The notes beneath the pieces are model-generated. The model ran no database searches and had not been told where the DNA came from. It saw nothing but the letters and a program-made list of their open reading frames with translations. Positions 34,561 to 40,624 of a DNA stretch of 43,378 bases are shown piece after piece (positions within the stretch are counted from its first letter, which is position 1; each line of letters starts with the position of its first letter). The DNA is from Verrucomicrobiales bacterium (GTDB lineage Bacteria; Verrucomicrobiota; Verrucomicrobiia; Verrucomicrobiales; DEV007). The DNA is taken from assembly GCA_029233965.1 (NCBI GenBank), contig JARGOP010000040.1, positions 1 through 43,378 on the forward strand, read 5' to 3'. Both the position numbers and the translations under genes were made by a program.

Positions 34561-36084
34561 TCAGGCTCTGCGTTTCAGCCATACCAGGCCTCCGACGATT
34601 AGAGCCATCCCCGGCATCAGAAAGATAGTCAGTGATTGCAGCAATCCAAAATCCGCCGGTGAAATATTCAAGGTGAATGCAGTCGGACGACGGGGCGAAA
34701 TCCCCATGAGCGACTCGCGATTCATGACCCAGTTTAAAGAGGCCATCGTAAAATCCGCCGCGACTTTCGAGGTATTTCCGTCCGGTGAAATGAGATTGGG
34801 ATTTCCCACGACGACGAGCCGGGAGCTTCCTTCCGACAAATCGGGATCACCCGGCATTCCTTTTTCCACGGATGCCGCCGTGAAGACAAGATTGGGTGAT
34901 CCGTTGTCGAGATCCGGATTGAACGAGATGTCTTCAGCCTGAAACTCGGTCTCTCCCCAGAAGCCCTCCCCGGCGACCATCAGGGGTCGCGGGCGAATGT
35001 TTTCCGAAAGAAGCAGGTCATCCTCGAACAAGACGTTTAGCGACTGAGTCCGTCCAAGCAGGCGCGCCGACAAAGCCGGTAAATCCCGGGTCGGTCCCCC
35101 GCCCGGCATGAGTGCGACCGGAACATCCGAAATCCGCCTCGGCGCCAACCCGGCCAGGCTGATGACACTGAGAACGCGGTCCCGGTTCGGAGCGACGCCG
35201 TGTTCTCTCAACAACTCATCGAAATTGGGCGTCTCCGCTCCGGGATCGAGAAAGATGACGAGGCCACCTCTTCCTGCATCCCAGTAATTCCGCACCATCT
35301 CAGCTTCGCGAGCTGACAGATCCGTGGTGTTACCGGGGAAAAAGAGAGCATCGGCATCCTCCGGAATTTCCTGCCTACCTTCGAGGACAAGGCTCTCAAG
35401 TCGAGCGTTCTGAGCGTTGGCGAGAGGCTGGATCTGTTGCGCGATCGGGACCAGTTCGTCGGCACGTCTTCCGCCCGTGACGAGATACACTTTTCTCTGC
35501 TGTTGCTCGGTCACTTCGAGGAGCGCCGAGGTCAATACTTCCTCCCCTTTGAATTCGATGACCCTTCCGGAATTGGAATCCCTTGTCACGAGTTCCTCTG
35601 CGGCGATCACTTTTACTCGACCGGTTTCACCGAGAATCACGATCTGGTCCCCCCCGAAGCGGAGCTGATACTGATCCTTCAACTCTGCGAGACGGGAGCG
35701 GCTTCGACTGAGGTCGAGATACTCGGAAACGACGGCATCGCCTCCGACGCGATCATACTCGGAGAGAAGTCCCTTCACTTCGGGATAAAGGTCGGAGGTT
35801 CCGAGGAAAGCCATCACAATCCGGACCTCGCCACCCAGCGACTTCAGATAGCTCGCAGATGTCTCTGACAAAGTGAAGCGCCGATTCTGGGTGAGATCCC
35901 AGGTCGTATGTCGGCGGCAACTCAGATTATTAACCTGAAAGAAGATGATCGTAACGATGATCAACTGCACCGCGACAAGGCCGGCAGTCCGGAAGCGCTC
36001 CATCTTCCTAGCATGGACACGAAGCCGCGACTCCCCGCCGGCGGAGGGAGCTTTCTTCTCAGGTTCCTGTTTTTCTTCTGCCAT
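34561..36084 (-). CDS. gldG: GldG-like ABC transporter auxiliary protein
   Basis: A 507-residue protein. A charged N-terminus precedes a membrane helix (~33-52), then the family signature WDLTQNRRFTLSETSASYLKSL, a large outer domain with GldG-like text (RGGLVIFLDPGAETPNF), and a C-terminal membrane helix (~480-502). It belongs to the family of GldG from gliding Bacteroidota, which occurs in many non-gliding bacteria. With the ATPase and permease it forms an ABC transporter of unknown substrate. It starts nine bases after the permease stop. Confidence 0.85.
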   Translation of the reverse strand: MAEEKQEPEKKAPSAGGESRLRVHARKMERFRTAGLVAVQLIIVTIIFFQVNNLSCRRHTTWDLTQNRRFTLSETSASYLKSLGGEVRIVMAFLGTSDLYPEVKGLLSEYDRVGGDAVVSEYLDLSRSRSRLAELKDQYQLRFGGDQIVILGETGRVKVIAAEELVTRDSNSGRVIEFKGEEVLTSALLEVTEQQQRKVYLVTGGRRADELVPIAQQIQPLANAQNARLESLVLEGRQEIPEDADALFFPGNTTDLSAREAEMVRNYWDAGRGGLVIFLDPGAETPNFDELLREHGVAPNRDRVLSVISLAGLAPRRISDVPVALMPGGGPTRDLPALSARLLGRTQSLNVLFEDDLLLSENIRPRPLMVAGEGFWGETEFQAEDISFNPDLDNGSPNLVFTAASVEKGMPGDPDLSEGSSRLVVVGNPNLISPDGNTSKVAADFTMASLNWVMNRESLMGISPRRPTAFTLNISPADFGLLQSLTIFLMPGMALIVGGLVWLKRRA

Positions 36085-36093
36085 GGTTTCAGA

Positions 36094-36849
36094 TCAGGTC
36101 CGCCACTTGCGGGATTCGAGGACATGATGCGTGATCGTCAGGAGCACTGCAGCAAAACTGATGTAATAAACAATCGGGCGGCTGTCGATGAGCCCCTCGG
36201 TCAATGAGTGCATGTGCTCAATTGTCGAAAAGTAGCTCAGTCCCTCACCCCAGGTCGAACCCGAGACGAGTCCGAAACGCTCCATGAATCCAAGGAAATA
36301 ATGGAGCATCACAAATACGAAGGTGAGCATCGCGGCGATGAGTTGGTTCGCGGTGAGTGCCGAGGCCAATGTCCCGATCGCGACATGAAAGATGCCGACG
36401 AGAAGCAATCCCAGTGCCGTGCCCCAGAGCGCACCCGCTTGAAAGGCGGCCTGCTCGCCCGTGATCCACTGGAAGAGAGGGAAGAAGAAGAAGAGCGGCA
36501 TGACGATCACGAGATATACCACGACGGTGGCGAAATATTTCGCGAGGATCACCTCCGCGGTCCTCACCGGCGCAGTGAGCAATCCTTCGATCGTGCCCAT
36601 TTTCCGCTCCTCAGCGAAGAGCCTCATCGTGATCAGCGGGAAGAGAATGAAGAAGCCCATCCAGAACCAGCCGGAATCGAAGAGGTTGTAGACAAGACTT
36701 CGCGAGCTGACCCGGAGACGCATCGCATTGATCATTCCCGCGAAGAGCCAACCATTCAGGAAGGTGAAAAGAGCCATCACGATCCAGGCAAGCGGCGAAA
36801 GAAAAAAGGATCGCAGCTCTTTGGTAAACAGGATGAAAAATGCTCGCAT
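36094..36849 (-). CDS. ABC-2 type permease, GldF-like
   Basis: A 251-residue integral membrane protein with six hydrophobic segments. The text TKELRSFFLSPLAWIVMALF at the N-terminus and EERKMGTIEGLLTAPVRTAEVILAKYFA in the loop before helix 3 are typical of ABC-2 permeases of the GldF/NosY kind. ATG at 36849 is chosen, since the seven residues before it are unlikely. It is followed at nine bases by the GldG-like gene; the ATPase gene ends 142 bases upstream. Confidence 0.85.
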   Translation of the reverse strand: MRAFFILFTKELRSFFLSPLAWIVMALFTFLNGWLFAGMINAMRLRVSSRSLVYNLFDSGWFWMGFFILFPLITMRLFAEERKMGTIEGLLTAPVRTAEVILAKYFATVVVYLVIVMPLFFFFPLFQWITGEQAAFQAGALWGTALGLLLVGIFHVAIGTLASALTANQLIAAMLTFVFVMLHYFLGFMERFGLVSGSTWGEGLSYFSTIEHMHSLTEGLIDSRPIVYYISFAAVLLTITHHVLESRKWRT

Positions 36850-36991
36850 AAACAGAAACCTGAAAATCAAACAGGGTTAGGTGGAAGACTGAAGAGGGTT
36901 AGGCATTGCCGGGGAATAGTGGGCCTGCCTGCGCCCGATGTCCTCCGCCAGGGCGGACAAGAGTGGACACCCTCCTTGAGCTGATCCAGAA
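36850..36991. other. Gap between the ATPase and permease genes
   Basis: A 142-base gap in an otherwise tight operon. It contains a GC-rich inverted repeat (TCCGCC 36944-36949, GGCGGA 36952-36957) with a very short loop. No ORF of note. It might attenuate transcription between the two genes. Confidence 0.3.
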
Positions 36992-37957
36992 TCACGCATC
37001 GGCCTCCTCCTTAATTTTCGCCCCGGAAGGGCGCTGCACAATGTCGACAAACGCGTCCTCAAGAGAGGCGGCCCGGCTCGCGAGTTCCCGGATTTTCCAG
37101 CCGGCCTCTGTGACCAGCCCGAAAATGTCTTCGCGGGCGTCAATGTTCGGGTCTGTGTGAATGGAAAGCGTGACCCAGCGGTTTCCGGTTTCCGTCTTCT
37201 TCACCGATTTCACTCCCTCAAGTTTGCCGATTTTCTCCGCGGCCTTGTCCCCGTCGCCCTGCATTTCCAGCATAATCTCCCCGGGACGGCGCAGGCGGCG
37301 GATCAGGTTTTGCGGCGTGTCACAGGCCCGGATCCTGCCCTGATCAATAATCACGACCCGTCCGCAGGTCATCTCCACTTCGGAAAGAATATGAGTGGAA
37401 ATCAGAATCGTGTGCCGTTCCCCGAGACGCTTGATGAGTTCCCGCGATTGCCGAATCTGATTCGGATCCAGCCCGTTGGTCGGCTCGTCGAGAATGAGGA
37501 GGTCCGGCTTGTTCACGAGCGCATCAGCGAGCCCGACCCGTTGCTTGTATCCTTTGGAAAGGGTCGCGATAATCTTGTGATCGACCTCGGAAAGGCTGCA
37601 GATGTCCATCGCCTCATTAACAGCCCGGAGAGAGTCCCGATAGCGAAGGCCTTTGATGCGCCCCCGGAACTGAAGATACTCTTTAACCCGCATGTCAGGA
37701 TAGAGCGGCACGTTCTCGGGCATGTACCCGACATGCTGCCGCACCTTGATCGAATCCTCGTAGATGTCGTAGCCGGCGACGGAAGCAGTCCCTTCCGAAG
37801 CCGACAGAAAGCAGGTCAAAATGCGGAGGGTAGTACTCTTCCCGGCCCCGTTCGGTCCCAGAAACCCGACAATCTCCCCCTTCTCGACATCGAATGAGAT
37901 CGAATCGACAGCCGTTCGTCCGGCATAGCGCTTGGTGAGGTGATTGACTTGGATCAT
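36992..37957 (-). CDS. ABC transporter ATP-binding protein, Gld-type (GldA-like)
   Basis: A 321-residue ATPase with complete motifs: Walker A GPNGAGKS (~34-41), signature LSKGYKQR (~135-142), Walker B LLILDEPTNGLD and a long C-terminal extension (MLEMQGDGDKAAEKIGKLEGVKS) typical of exporter-type ABC-2 ATPases of the CcmA/GldA kind. It powers the permease, GldG and DUF4340 products encoded downstream. ATG at 37957 (MIQVNHLTKRYAG) is chosen; the frame extends 18 codons upstream with no family similarity. Confidence 0.9.
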   Translation of the reverse strand: MIQVNHLTKRYAGRTAVDSISFDVEKGEIVGFLGPNGAGKSTTLRILTCFLSASEGTASVAGYDIYEDSIKVRQHVGYMPENVPLYPDMRVKEYLQFRGRIKGLRYRDSLRAVNEAMDICSLSEVDHKIIATLSKGYKQRVGLADALVNKPDLLILDEPTNGLDPNQIRQSRELIKRLGERHTILISTHILSEVEMTCGRVVIIDQGRIRACDTPQNLIRRLRRPGEIMLEMQGDGDKAAEKIGKLEGVKSVKKTETGNRWVTLSIHTDPNIDAREDIFGLVTEAGWKIRELASRAASLEDAFVDIVQRPSGAKIKEEADA

Positions 37958-38070
37958 GAACGGAAGTGTCCCGACCGGTAGGGGGAGTTCAATGCTTACA
38001 TGGAATGGCAAAAAGATTCAACCATCCAAATCACTTTGCGCACCCGCCGGTTTGCCGGAACGGAGACAAA

Positions 38071-39252
38071 TCAATCGAGATGAGCAATCTCCAGCTGAGG
38101 GCGCCGCCGCTGCGCTTCAGGATCGATCCGATGCACCCAGATGCTCTGGACCAGTCCCATGAGGAACAGGAGGACAACGATGAACGTTCCGCCGTAGCTG
38201 ATGAAGGGCAGCGGAATCCCGGTAATCGGCATGATCAAAAGATTCATCCCGACATTTTGATAAATATGGGCAAAAAGCAGCCCCACCACTCCGACCACCA
38301 ACAGTCGCCCGAGCATATCCCGACTGTAAAACGCGACATAGATACACTGAAGCAGCAAGAGCGTGAAGCCTCCAAGCATGAGAAGGGCTCCACGAAATCC
38401 CCACTCCTCCGCGAGAACCGGAAAGATAAAGTCGTTGATCGCCGTGTCAGGGGAAATGAATCCCTTGTTATTCACCGTTTCCGGATTCTTGAACCCCTTT
38501 CCGCTCCAGCCTCCACTGCCGATCGCGAGCAGGTTGTTGTAGGCACTGTAGGCATCCGCTAGAATATTGACCTTTTTGCCCTGGAGCATTTCGATCTGGG
38601 TCGTGATCCGCTTTTTCTGGTAATCCTTGAGTCCGAAGAAAAAGGCAAAGGGCAGAAACATTGTCACCGTGAGAATAATGACGATCATGAAACGGAACGG
38701 GATATTCCCGATCAACACCATCGCGCCGAAGACCGGCACCCAGACAATCGCGGATCCGAAGTCTCCCTGAAGAAGAACGAATGCGAAAGGGATCAAAGCG
38801 ACAATTCCCGACACGGAGAGCCGAATGAACGGATTCCGGAGAATCGGATGCCAGCGGTGAAGAGTGCAGAGAACCACTGCTAAGAGGATCAACCCTGCCG
38901 CGATCGCAAGCTGCGAGGACTGAATCAGGACGGGACCGACACTGAGCCAGGCCCGTGTTCCGTTGATCTCGACGCCGAAAAAGGTGGTAAAAATAAGAAG
39001 CCCCACCGCGACGAGATACACCGGCAGCCCGAGGAATTTCGTCCATTTGTAATCCATGAGGCTCGTCGCAGTGAACACCATCAAACCGATCAGAATCCAG
39101 TAGACCTGGTCCTTCCACTTTGTGGCGAGTTCGGCCTCTTCACGCATCCAGCAGGCGCTGTAGATCGCAAAAACTCCGAAAATGAGCAGGGCGATCATAT
39201 TGGCGATGAGAAGCCAATTCATGCCGAGAAATTTTCTGAAAAGAGGAGTCAT
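38071..39252 (-). CDS. rodA: RodA, peptidoglycan glycosyltransferase for cell elongation (SEDS family)
   Basis: A 393-residue polytopic protein with about ten membrane helices. Family text is clear: NGTRAWLSVGPVLIQSSQLA, LLQGDFGSAIVWVPVF, FIFPVLAEEWGFRGAL and MPITGIPLPFISYGGT near the C-terminus. SEDS proteins polymerise lipid II together with a class B penicillin-binding protein. It is preceded by a degenerate ABC ATPase gene with only three bases between stop and start. No mreBCD or pbp2 lies in the window. Confidence 0.92.
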   Translation of the reverse strand: MTPLFRKFLGMNWLLIANMIALLIFGVFAIYSACWMREEAELATKWKDQVYWILIGLMVFTATSLMDYKWTKFLGLPVYLVAVGLLIFTTFFGVEINGTRAWLSVGPVLIQSSQLAIAAGLILLAVVLCTLHRWHPILRNPFIRLSVSGIVALIPFAFVLLQGDFGSAIVWVPVFGAMVLIGNIPFRFMIVIILTVTMFLPFAFFFGLKDYQKKRITTQIEMLQGKKVNILADAYSAYNNLLAIGSGGWSGKGFKNPETVNNKGFISPDTAINDFIFPVLAEEWGFRGALLMLGGFTLLLLQCIYVAFYSRDMLGRLLVVGVVGLLFAHIYQNVGMNLLIMPITGIPLPFISYGGTFIVVLLFLMGLVQSIWVHRIDPEAQRRRPQLEIAHLD

Positions 39253-39255
39253 GGA

Positions 39256-40038
39256 TCAGAGGCAGCAACTTACGAGTCGCCTGGTATAGTCGTGTTCAGG
39301 CCGATTGACGACGGAGTCGGCGGGGCCGATCTCCAGCAATCGTCCCCGATGCAACACACCGATATCATCGCCCAATTGATGAGCAACTGCAAGATCGTCT
39401 GTGGCCACCAGGAGGGTCAGCCCCCTCTCCTCGCGGACATGACGAATGAGATTGAGCAGTTCCGCCTCCTGCACCGCATCCAGTCCGTGCGTCACGCCGT
39501 CGCAGATCAAGAGATCCGGCCCGACCAGTAGAGCCCTCGCCATCGCCGCCTGCTGGCGCTCAACCGCATCGAGTTCTGCCGGATAGAGAGGACGGATCAC
39601 CTCGGGAAGCCCGCAGAGCACCATGACCGCTTCGGTCCGCCGGTGCCACTCCTCGCGGGATTCCTTTGGAAACCAGAGCCGCAGCACTTCGAGAAACATC
39701 TGGTCAATCGTCATCTCCGGACTGAGCTGTCCGGCACGATCTGAAAACACGGCCTGCATCTGCCGTCTCAACTTTCGAAAATGACGATCTCCCAGCGCCG
39801 TCGTGTCGACTCGGGCAAAAGTGATTCTGCCCGAGGCGACTTCTTTCAATTTTAGCACCGCCATGACGATGGCCCGCTTTCCACTGTTCTCCTCGCCGAC
39901 AAGACTCAAGCTCTTTCCTTTCTCAATCTGAAACGAAATGTCCTCGACGAGCATCTTCTCCGAGATGTCGTAGCGGAACCAGTGCCGTCGCCGGCGCTGT
40001 TGGAGAAGAGTCAGGTTTTCGACCTCGAGAAAAGCCAT
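39256..40038 (-). CDS. Degenerate ABC ATPase (OppF/DppF-like pseudo-ATPase) coupled to rodA
   Basis: A 260-residue protein with the whole length and order of an oligopeptide-type ABC ATPase, but all four catalytic elements are altered. Walker A is GEENSGKRA (48-56) with Arg after the lysine instead of Ser/Thr; the signature is LDAVE (156-160) instead of LSGGQ; Walker B is LLICDGVTHGLD (176-187), with glycine in place of the catalytic glutamate; the switch histidine is replaced (VATDDLAV rather than ISHDLAV). The Q-loop VFSD remains. The frame is clean with no stops, so it is conserved as a protein. It likely binds partners or nucleotide without hydrolysis. No transmembrane partner gene is nearby apart from rodA. 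Confidence 0.82.
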   Translation of the reverse strand: MAFLEVENLTLLQQRRRRHWFRYDISEKMLVEDISFQIEKGKSLSLVGEENSGKRAIVMAVLKLKEVASGRITFARVDTTALGDRHFRKLRRQMQAVFSDRAGQLSPEMTIDQMFLEVLRLWFPKESREEWHRRTEAVMVLCGLPEVIRPLYPAELDAVERQQAAMARALLVGPDLLICDGVTHGLDAVQEAELLNLIRHVREERGLTLLVATDDLAVAHQLGDDIGVLHRGRLLEIGPADSVVNRPEHDYTRRLVSCCL

Positions 40039-40150: not shown

Positions 40151-40624
40151 ATGAGTGCCCCCCGTCTCACTGTTTTGCTCCTCCTCGCCTTGGCGGCTTT
40201 CTCCGCCGGCTGCGCAACAAAGTCGGGAGCAGAGAAACGCATTGAGAAGAATCCGCAGCTTTACGGCAAACTCAGCGACCGGGACCGGGAACTGGTCCGG
40301 AACGGAGAGGTGAAAGAGGGCATGTCGCAGGAGGCTGTCTTTCTGGCCTGGGGTCGTCCCGACCGTGTCATGAGCGGCGGTCGAGACGGGAAATCGAGCG
40401 AAAAATGGGCCTACTTCGACAGTCAGCCCGTCAGCAATTTTTCCGTCGGAATCGGAGCCGGGGCGATCCACCCGTTCTACACGAATTTCGGGGTCCACCC
40501 CGCATTCGGCTACAGCTACGGCCCGGGATGGGGCTACGGAACGGATATCGATTTCGTCTCGCATATCAGCAGGCAGGTGGAATTCACGAACGGCAAAGTC
40601 ACCGCGTGGGAGCGCACCCGATAA
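40151..40624 (+). CDS. Small lipoprotein, BamE/SmpA-like
   Basis: A 157-residue protein with a lipoprotein signal (LLLALAAFSAGC; lipid-modified cysteine at residue 21). The middle part (VRNGEVKEGMSQEAVFLAWGRPDRV...KWAYF...VEFTNGKVTAWER) has the pattern of the BamE/SmpA/OmlA fold seen in many envelope lipoproteins. Between them lies a glycine/tyrosine-rich insert (GYSYGPGWGYGTD). Function unknown. It is divergent from the pseudo-ABC gene. Confidence 0.72.
   Translation: MSAPRLTVLLLLALAAFSAGCATKSGAEKRIEKNPQLYGKLSDRDRELVRNGEVKEGMSQEAVFLAWGRPDRVMSGGRDGKSSEKWAYFDSQPVSNFSVGIGAGAIHPFYTNFGVHPAFGYSYGPGWGYGTDIDFVSHISRQVEFTNGKVTAWERTR

Follow-up and report, generated by a model that had tools for sequence, protein, structure and literature searches.

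The rodA-linked gene and its product

The window, by which is meant the whole stretch of 43,378 nucleotides analysed, carried on its minus strand an ABC-type gene directly upstream of rodA. Its relevant features were:

38071 to 39252, minus strand: rodA, SEDS elongation glycosyltransferase, directly downstream (Pfam, NCBIfam)
39256 to 40038, minus strand: predicted pseudo-ATPase, probably OppF-derived, 260 aa, a single ABC nucleotide-binding domain (ORF and translation, Pfam, NCBIfam, AlphaFold2, fold matches)
39397 to 39399, minus strand: switch His replaced by Asp214, in ATDDLAVA (genus comparison)
39478 to 39480, minus strand: D-loop Asp187, kept (genus comparison)
39496 to 39513, minus strand: Walker B LLICDG, residues 176-181, Asp kept and catalytic Glu lost (Gly) (genus comparison)
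39559 to 39573, minus strand: signature position, LDAVE instead of FSGGQ, residues 156-160 (genus comparison)
39754 to 39756, minus strand: Q-loop Gln95, kept (genus comparison)
39871 to 39897, minus strand: degenerate Walker A GEENSGKRA, residues 48-56, Ser/Thr replaced by Arg (translation, genus comparison)

The frame ran from 40038 to 39256 with an ATG start and 260 codons (translation), and when its 780 nt were shuffled by mononucleotide, only 3 of 20,000 versions remained open. The first-pass annotation had described an intact frame, giving no strand, and an ABC-type pseudo-ATPase with GKR, LDAVE, DG and a lost switch His; the translation agreed with both descriptions. The product contained an ABC nucleotide-binding domain (Pfam ABC_tran, PF00005, 51.6 bits; cut-off 25). 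Its best NCBIfam relatives were OppF (154.1 bits) and YejF (153.1 bits), with both scores far under the equivalog cut-offs (540 and 834, respectively), and the oligo_HPY C-terminal region, the tail of OppF subunits, was partial (Pfam, 16.2 bits; cut-off 27.1). Of the full OppF/DppF layout proposed earlier, the ABC domain nearest to OppF was borne out and the completeness, given the partial oligo_HPY region, was not. Among the features of a catalytic ABC ATPase, the window protein had the Q-loop Gln and the D-loop Asp, and lacked the Walker A pattern GxxGxGK[ST], LSGGQ, the Walker B Glu and the switch His. To judge from the missing residues, it would be without ATPase activity.

An AlphaFold2 model of the window protein, built with 38 relatives, had a mean pLDDT of 93.7 and a pTM of 0.90. 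The top Foldseek row was E. coli OppF (8z21_D; TM 0.93 by query), to which VIA-align aligned 260 residues of the model at 1.9 A (Z 32.4). Z ranged from 28 to 34 across the 50 ABC domains listed by VIA-align, and MetN and PhnK scored as high as OppF, so that the fold by itself cannot pick the family.

Among known systems, the OppF/DppF importers (E. coli OppBCDF, 8z21; M. tuberculosis OppABCD, 8j5s) were alike in fold and evolutionary group, and sequences of the OppF/DppF type led the sequence-match list. The window protein differed from them in lacking the Walker A Ser/Thr, signature, Walker B Glu and switch His and in an oligo_HPY score under the cut-off, and its gene sits before rodA, outside any opp operon. 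FtsE, the ABC domain of FtsEX linked to cell-wall growth, is an active ATPase and pairs with FtsX. The loose parallel with FtsE drawn in the first-pass annotation did not hold, the nearest ancestry being OppF: the FtsE model TIGR02673 scored 91.1 bits (cut-off 264.85), against 154.1 bits for OppF, and the FtsE fold match was weaker (Z 28.3 vs. 32.4). An FtsE-like protein was ruled out on these scores. The pseudo-ATPase gene had no ftsX neighbour, the genes adjoining it being rodA, which codes for a SEDS enzyme, and a 157-aa ORF. PhnK and PhnL of C-P lyase (7z15 to 7z19) are, by their entry titles, ABC domains on a non-transporter complex (7z19_I, Z 32.4); PhnK structures contain, again by their titles, ATP, AMPPNP or ADP and Pi, so that PhnK binds nucleotide, and the complex is a different one. 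Heterodimeric ABC exporters (TAP, TM287/288) are described in passages of a review (PMC7756269) as typically having a degenerate site with a changed signature and Walker B Glu, which is argued there to have stayed under evolutionary pressure. As far as those passages go, one composite site is canonical within the exporter, whereas the window protein is a stand-alone domain that has lost all four catalytic elements. There was also no transporter gene beside the degenerate copies, save an ABC-2 cluster after rodA found in the window's genus only.

The downstream gene was identified as rodA by Pfam FTSW_RODA_SPOVE (200 bits), and TIGR02210 was its best NCBIfam model (259.9 bits, under its cut-off of 336.7). 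In the window, 3 nt separated the pseudo-ATPase stop from the rodA ATG on the same strand, as annotated earlier. The spacing itself was not conserved, with gaps of -1 to 29 nt across the genus and of -1 to 291 nt in other genera. Translational coupling of the gene with rodA is possible.

In the window's genus, rodA was followed by an ABC-2 type ATPase, a permease and a GldG-like protein (34561-38011 in the window, minus strand). The ABC-2 ATPase was found at 18 of 21 genus loci, some of the others ending at a contig edge, and at L024 the cluster was followed by a DUF4340 protein. The cluster was absent in other genera bearing the degenerate gene. On the other side of the pseudo-ATPase gene, the divergent ORF of 157 aa (40151-40624 in the window, plus strand) was without a Pfam match and lipoprotein-like by eye. 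Similar-sized genes (cluster c10) occupied its place in six genus loci, the likeness being one of size and place.

Degenerate copies in the genus and the family

Codes beginning with f and g denote family and genus groups, G genomes and L loci. Adjacency was scored from tblastn, as greedy gene calls carry wrong frames in GC-rich loci. The 33 genomes of the window's genus, its own included, contained 21 full-length copies and one fragment at a contig edge (G009), and all 22 copies immediately preceded rodA in the same orientation. The 11 genomes without a copy comprised six without rodA, three with a partial rodA and two with a full rodA. In G002, G003, G011, G018, G021 and G023, there was no rodA match beyond an FtsW-like one, four of these genomes being 52-75% complete. 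The partial rodA was an internal remnant (last 98 residues) in G014 and lay at contig edges in G016 and G019. A full rodA and mreB were present in G024 and G029, but no match to the gene was found within the 12 kb read around rodA. Within the genus, the gene was never seen without rodA, and rodA did occur without the gene. For adjacent genes, being lost along with rodA is close to automatic, and a single event may account for it (G014). No clear MreB turned up in G011, G014 and G021, which, being also without the pseudo-ATPase gene and a full rodA, appear to have lost the rod system in a sub-lineage.

A family profile search of 74 genomes (E 1e-55) gave 35 matches, of which 22 were in the genus, 12 in g100, g101, g103, g108 and g111, and one, in G033, was canonical. 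All 12 matches in the five other genera were degenerate and directly upstream of rodA. Reading rodA loci added a degenerate copy beside rodA in G217 (g106), found only via its rodA, and a canonical linked copy in G216. The degenerate copies thus totalled 34 at full length (window included) plus the contig-edge fragment, in seven genera of one family, and all 35 were found directly upstream of rodA. In G033, rodA lay on another contig, and none occurred in the roughly 5 kb flanking the canonical copy on each side. In this genome (80% complete), rodA was split over two frames (L063, 4537-5708) and no clear MreB was found. At 16 of 22 further rodA loci of the family, the 1.5 kb upstream held no such gene, and four more were incomplete upstream; rodA without such a gene in front occurred in at least one genome in each of six genera of the family. 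From these 16 loci, and from G024 and G029, the gene is not a general need of RodA.

Motifs were counted in 21 genus members, 26 canonical relatives (25 rodA-linked copies plus G033) and 13 intermediates. All scored motifs were intact in 26/26 canonical relatives. In the genus, the Walker A Ser/Thr was lost in 21/21 members, and the Walker A Lys was lost in 10/21 and kept in 11/21. The signature Ser was lost in 20/21, with Asp in its place in 20/21. The Walker B Glu was lost in 20/21, and the Walker B Asp, kept in the window, was kept in only 3/21 (lost in 18/21). The switch position was Asp in 21/21 genus members vs. His in 26/26 canonical relatives. The Q-loop Gln was present in 21/21 genus members, 26/26 canonical relatives and 10/13 intermediates, and the D-loop Asp in 21/21 genus members and 13/13 intermediates. 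Across the 34 full-length degenerate copies, SGGQ was intact in none, and no copy was intact at all motifs. Glu was still at the Walker B position in three (L032, L210 and L217), the switch His was retained in seven, and the Walker A Lys plus Ser/Thr in four. Losses differed by genus: Walker A was kept in g111, with the signature, Glu (replaced by Asp) and His lost, and His was kept in g100 and g108, with the Walker A Ser/Thr gone. The single g101 copy had the TDDLAVA replacement in common with the window's genus.

Nineteen positions were fixed differently between genus and canonical copies, seven of them in residues 151-172, the best conserved among the stretches compared in the genus. The genus copies are re-specialised, in that the replacement residues are themselves conserved. 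The Walker A Lys and the Walker B Asp vary freely, and ATP use would therefore hardly be the conserved function. The first-pass annotation had taken the gene to be conserved-looking and tied to rodA, and the relatives confirmed it on both points. A decaying pseudogene of one strain only, named there as a refuting outcome, was ruled out by the spread of the 34 full-length copies over seven genera.

In a tree of 51 rows, for which 9/21 genus rows and 9/13 intermediates were used, the 18 degenerate rows formed one clade (support 98/99), from which the loss most likely began once. The clade branched beside canonical copies of another family (96/83). Catalytic loss in the rodA-linked copy thus most likely had a single origin and was stepwise. 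In an earlier tree without intermediates, the genus copies were on a long branch outside. AU tests of their placement, run after leaving out three long genus rows and five other rows, did not separate the possible homes (canonical rodA-linked copies p = 0.449, transporter OppF p = 0.064, other OppF type p = 0.115). It was the addition of the intermediates that gave the genus copies a supported placement.

Selection was gauged from dN/dS by simple Nei-Gojobori counts, whose values are rough, with many pairs near saturation. For the window and its closest relative (L020), dN/dS was 0.027 (rodA 0.021), and for L035 and L036 it was 0.129 (rodA 0.116). The genus median was 0.21 (rodA 0.08) over 117 of 210 pairs, the other 93 being dropped because dS was infinite or at least 3 in either gene. 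In the other genera, the nine closest pairs had dN/dS of 0.11 to 0.34, and pN was below pS in 78/78 pairs. There were 34 invariant columns across the 21 genus proteins. The gene is thus held under purifying selection, and its dN/dS does not fit a free-running pseudogene. It diverged faster than rodA (median pN 0.31 vs. 0.13; 210 pairs), which relaxed constraint would also give. In a mirror-tree comparison of only eight genomes, the correlation of the gene with rodA (r = 0.925) was not discriminated from that with the neighbouring permease (r = 0.926).

Canonical relatives and probable descent from OppF

A search for RodA in 141 genomes of the class (E 1e-60) gave 27 rodA loci, 19 of which were immediately preceded by an ATPase gene in the same orientation (18 canonical copies and the window) and eight of which were not. 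Measured against the G040 copy, the ATPase of the 14 linked loci from outside the order shared 59-65% identity, and RodA only 34-41%. Between the window's genus and the window the order was reversed, with 41-92% identity for the ATPase and 69-96% for RodA. In the 9-14 kb read around the 14 copies outside the order, there was no match to OppA, B or C. Two side observations came from these searches. In L065 and L066 (family f6), rodA was flanked by thiG and by a radical SAM/BATS gene that is probably thiH, this order being annotated in L065 only, with genes of the same clusters there in L066. In genus g4 of family f2 (G042, G148), MreB was present and no RodA was found at E 1e-60.

Seven relatives lay directly after oppD (families f12, f13, f25 and f39), with oppC visible before oppD in five; the oppD-linked stretches read reach only about 1.5 kb. 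These seven were 57-67% identical to the canonical copy L120 and had intact motifs. In the tree they fell among the rodA-linked copies, in a 27-row group with weak support (89/48) and with the joining group not starred. An oppABCD set without oppF was found in G142, G166 and G170, and oppBCD without oppF in G119; G108 had one complete opp locus and one without oppF. The G166 contig stops about 0.6 kb past oppD, and no other OppF-like gene was found in that genome at 1e-55. Both OppF-like genes and OppB were looked for in 13 genomes: the five without an OppF-like match (1e-55), which come from two families, were also without OppB, and the other eight had both.

Common ancestry with OppF is well supported by these sequence comparisons. 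Given the oppD-linked relatives and the oppABCD sets without oppF, the canonical rodA-linked gene is most likely an OppF that left its operon, and the ancestor of the degenerate copies most likely an OppF relocated next to rodA. Canonical copies also occur away from rodA (G033, G086, G119, opp operons). Counting against this OppF account are the complete oppABCDF alongside a canonical rodA-linked copy in G152 and the presence of both OppF types with an intact linked copy in G216.

In the window's genome, OppABC were on one contig and an OppD/OppF pair on another, and there was a second peptide system; the pseudo-ATPase gene was not in an opp locus. In that second system (L081, G000:C17), OppD-like and OppF-like domains lay in very long open frames and are perhaps fused. 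The other OppF type, defined by at least 60% identity to the one in the window's genome, was present in 15 of the 17 degenerate-copy genomes tested vs. 6 of 22 with a canonical copy, the genomes being related and the counts not independent. It was not found in G213 and G224, which have a degenerate copy and likewise count against the OppF account, and it also occurred in many genomes without any rodA-linked copy. These counts fit an importer role taken over by the other OppF, and fall short of proof.

A possible binding module at the rodA locus

ABC domains dock on a membrane partner through their Q-loop/helical face and contact a second ABC domain through the signature/D-loop/H-loop face. With the hydrolytic centre gone, the Q-loop Gln and the D-loop Asp kept, and the signature and H-loop remodelled and conserved, a non-catalytic binding module is the most likely kind of protein. 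No neighbour other than rodA is shared by all seven genera, which makes RodA, or a protein associated with it, the first candidate as partner. The reading tentatively favoured here, to which we give a little less than even credence, is that of an OppF-derived, ATP-independent, non-catalytic binding module of the RodA locus kept under purifying selection.

The steps would be as follows. In much of the class, the OppF of an oligopeptide importer would have taken up a position immediately before rodA, away from oppABCD. Genomes of the window's family usually have another OppF lineage too, which probably supplies the importer. The copy beside rodA would have lost its signature and, in nearly all copies, the catalytic Glu, from a single origin, with the Walker A Ser/Thr, the Walker B Asp and the switch His lost in steps. 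What remained would be a folded, ATP-independent domain under purifying selection. Its Q-loop/helical face, used by OppF on the permease, may dock on RodA, or on a protein associated with it, as membrane partner, and the remodelled signature/H-loop face may bind the protein itself or another one.

A role with RodA is a best guess from gene order and conservation, and the partner (RodA or an associate) and an effect on elongation are guesses from gene order. The fuller account, in which an OppF was placed before rodA and then became, in one family, a specialised pseudo-enzyme that works without ATP, attaches to RodA or its complex and sets the activity of elongation, is possible, if less likely than not. 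No elongasome regulator of this kind is known to us from model bacteria. In PMC, searched by title and abstract start and with subscription journals mostly outside, there was no paper on an OppF-like gene beside rodA or on such a pseudo-ATPase.

The protein might instead still belong to Opp, as an inactive subunit that, by docking on OppBC or pairing with OppD, serves as a dominant-negative decoy and tunes or lowers the uptake of peptides (murein peptide). The ancestry from OppF would suit a decoy, as would the OppABC and separate OppD/OppF pair retained in the window's genome and the Q-loop Gln and D-loop Asp kept in every genus member. However, a heterodimer with a partner that lacks the signature, Walker A, Walker B Glu and His would have neither of its composite ATP sites in working order, whereas in exporters with a degenerate site the other site stays canonical, according to the same review passages (PMC7756269). 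The adjacency of all 35 degenerate copies to rodA, which canonical copies do not always share, also argues against a decoy, which we regard as unlikely. A further account is that the gene is kept in cis, its frame or end driving rodA translation or carrying rodA signals, with the protein mattering little. Such an account is quite improbable with dN/dS well below 1 and invariant columns across the genus proteins, with gaps to rodA of up to 291 nt in other genera, and with lineages that have rodA and no such gene before it, even if the short gaps in the genus and the fast divergence of the gene would fit. A consensus promoter scan gave two sites, both inside rodA (1.2 expected), and was uninformative for the cis account.

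Slow decay of an OppF made redundant by another OppF, and still awaiting loss, would be in line with the other OppF type in most of the degenerate genomes tested, with the stepwise loss of motifs, and with the absence of the gene before rodA in two members of the window's genus and in one genome or more from each of six genera of the family. The frames, however, are open in all 34 full-length copies, the residues that took the place of the motifs are conserved across the genus, and the gene is under purifying selection, so that slow decay is likewise a poor prospect. A heterodimer with the ABC-2 ATPase downstream of rodA was also considered, and was weakened by finding no close match beside rodA at the 13 degenerate loci elsewhere (L210-L222), where one 31% match lay about 2 kb past rodA in L210 and L212, L218 and L222 were short stretches.

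The ATP-independent binding module remains the reading preferred here, and the new type of regulator suggested in the first-pass annotation is no more than a possibility. A stand-alone ABC domain without catalytic motifs and under selection would be a clear natural pseudo-ATPase, with living intermediates of motif loss. An oppF-like gene often placed before rodA across the class raises the question of whether the uptake of peptides, perhaps murein peptides, and the elongation of the wall are coordinated.
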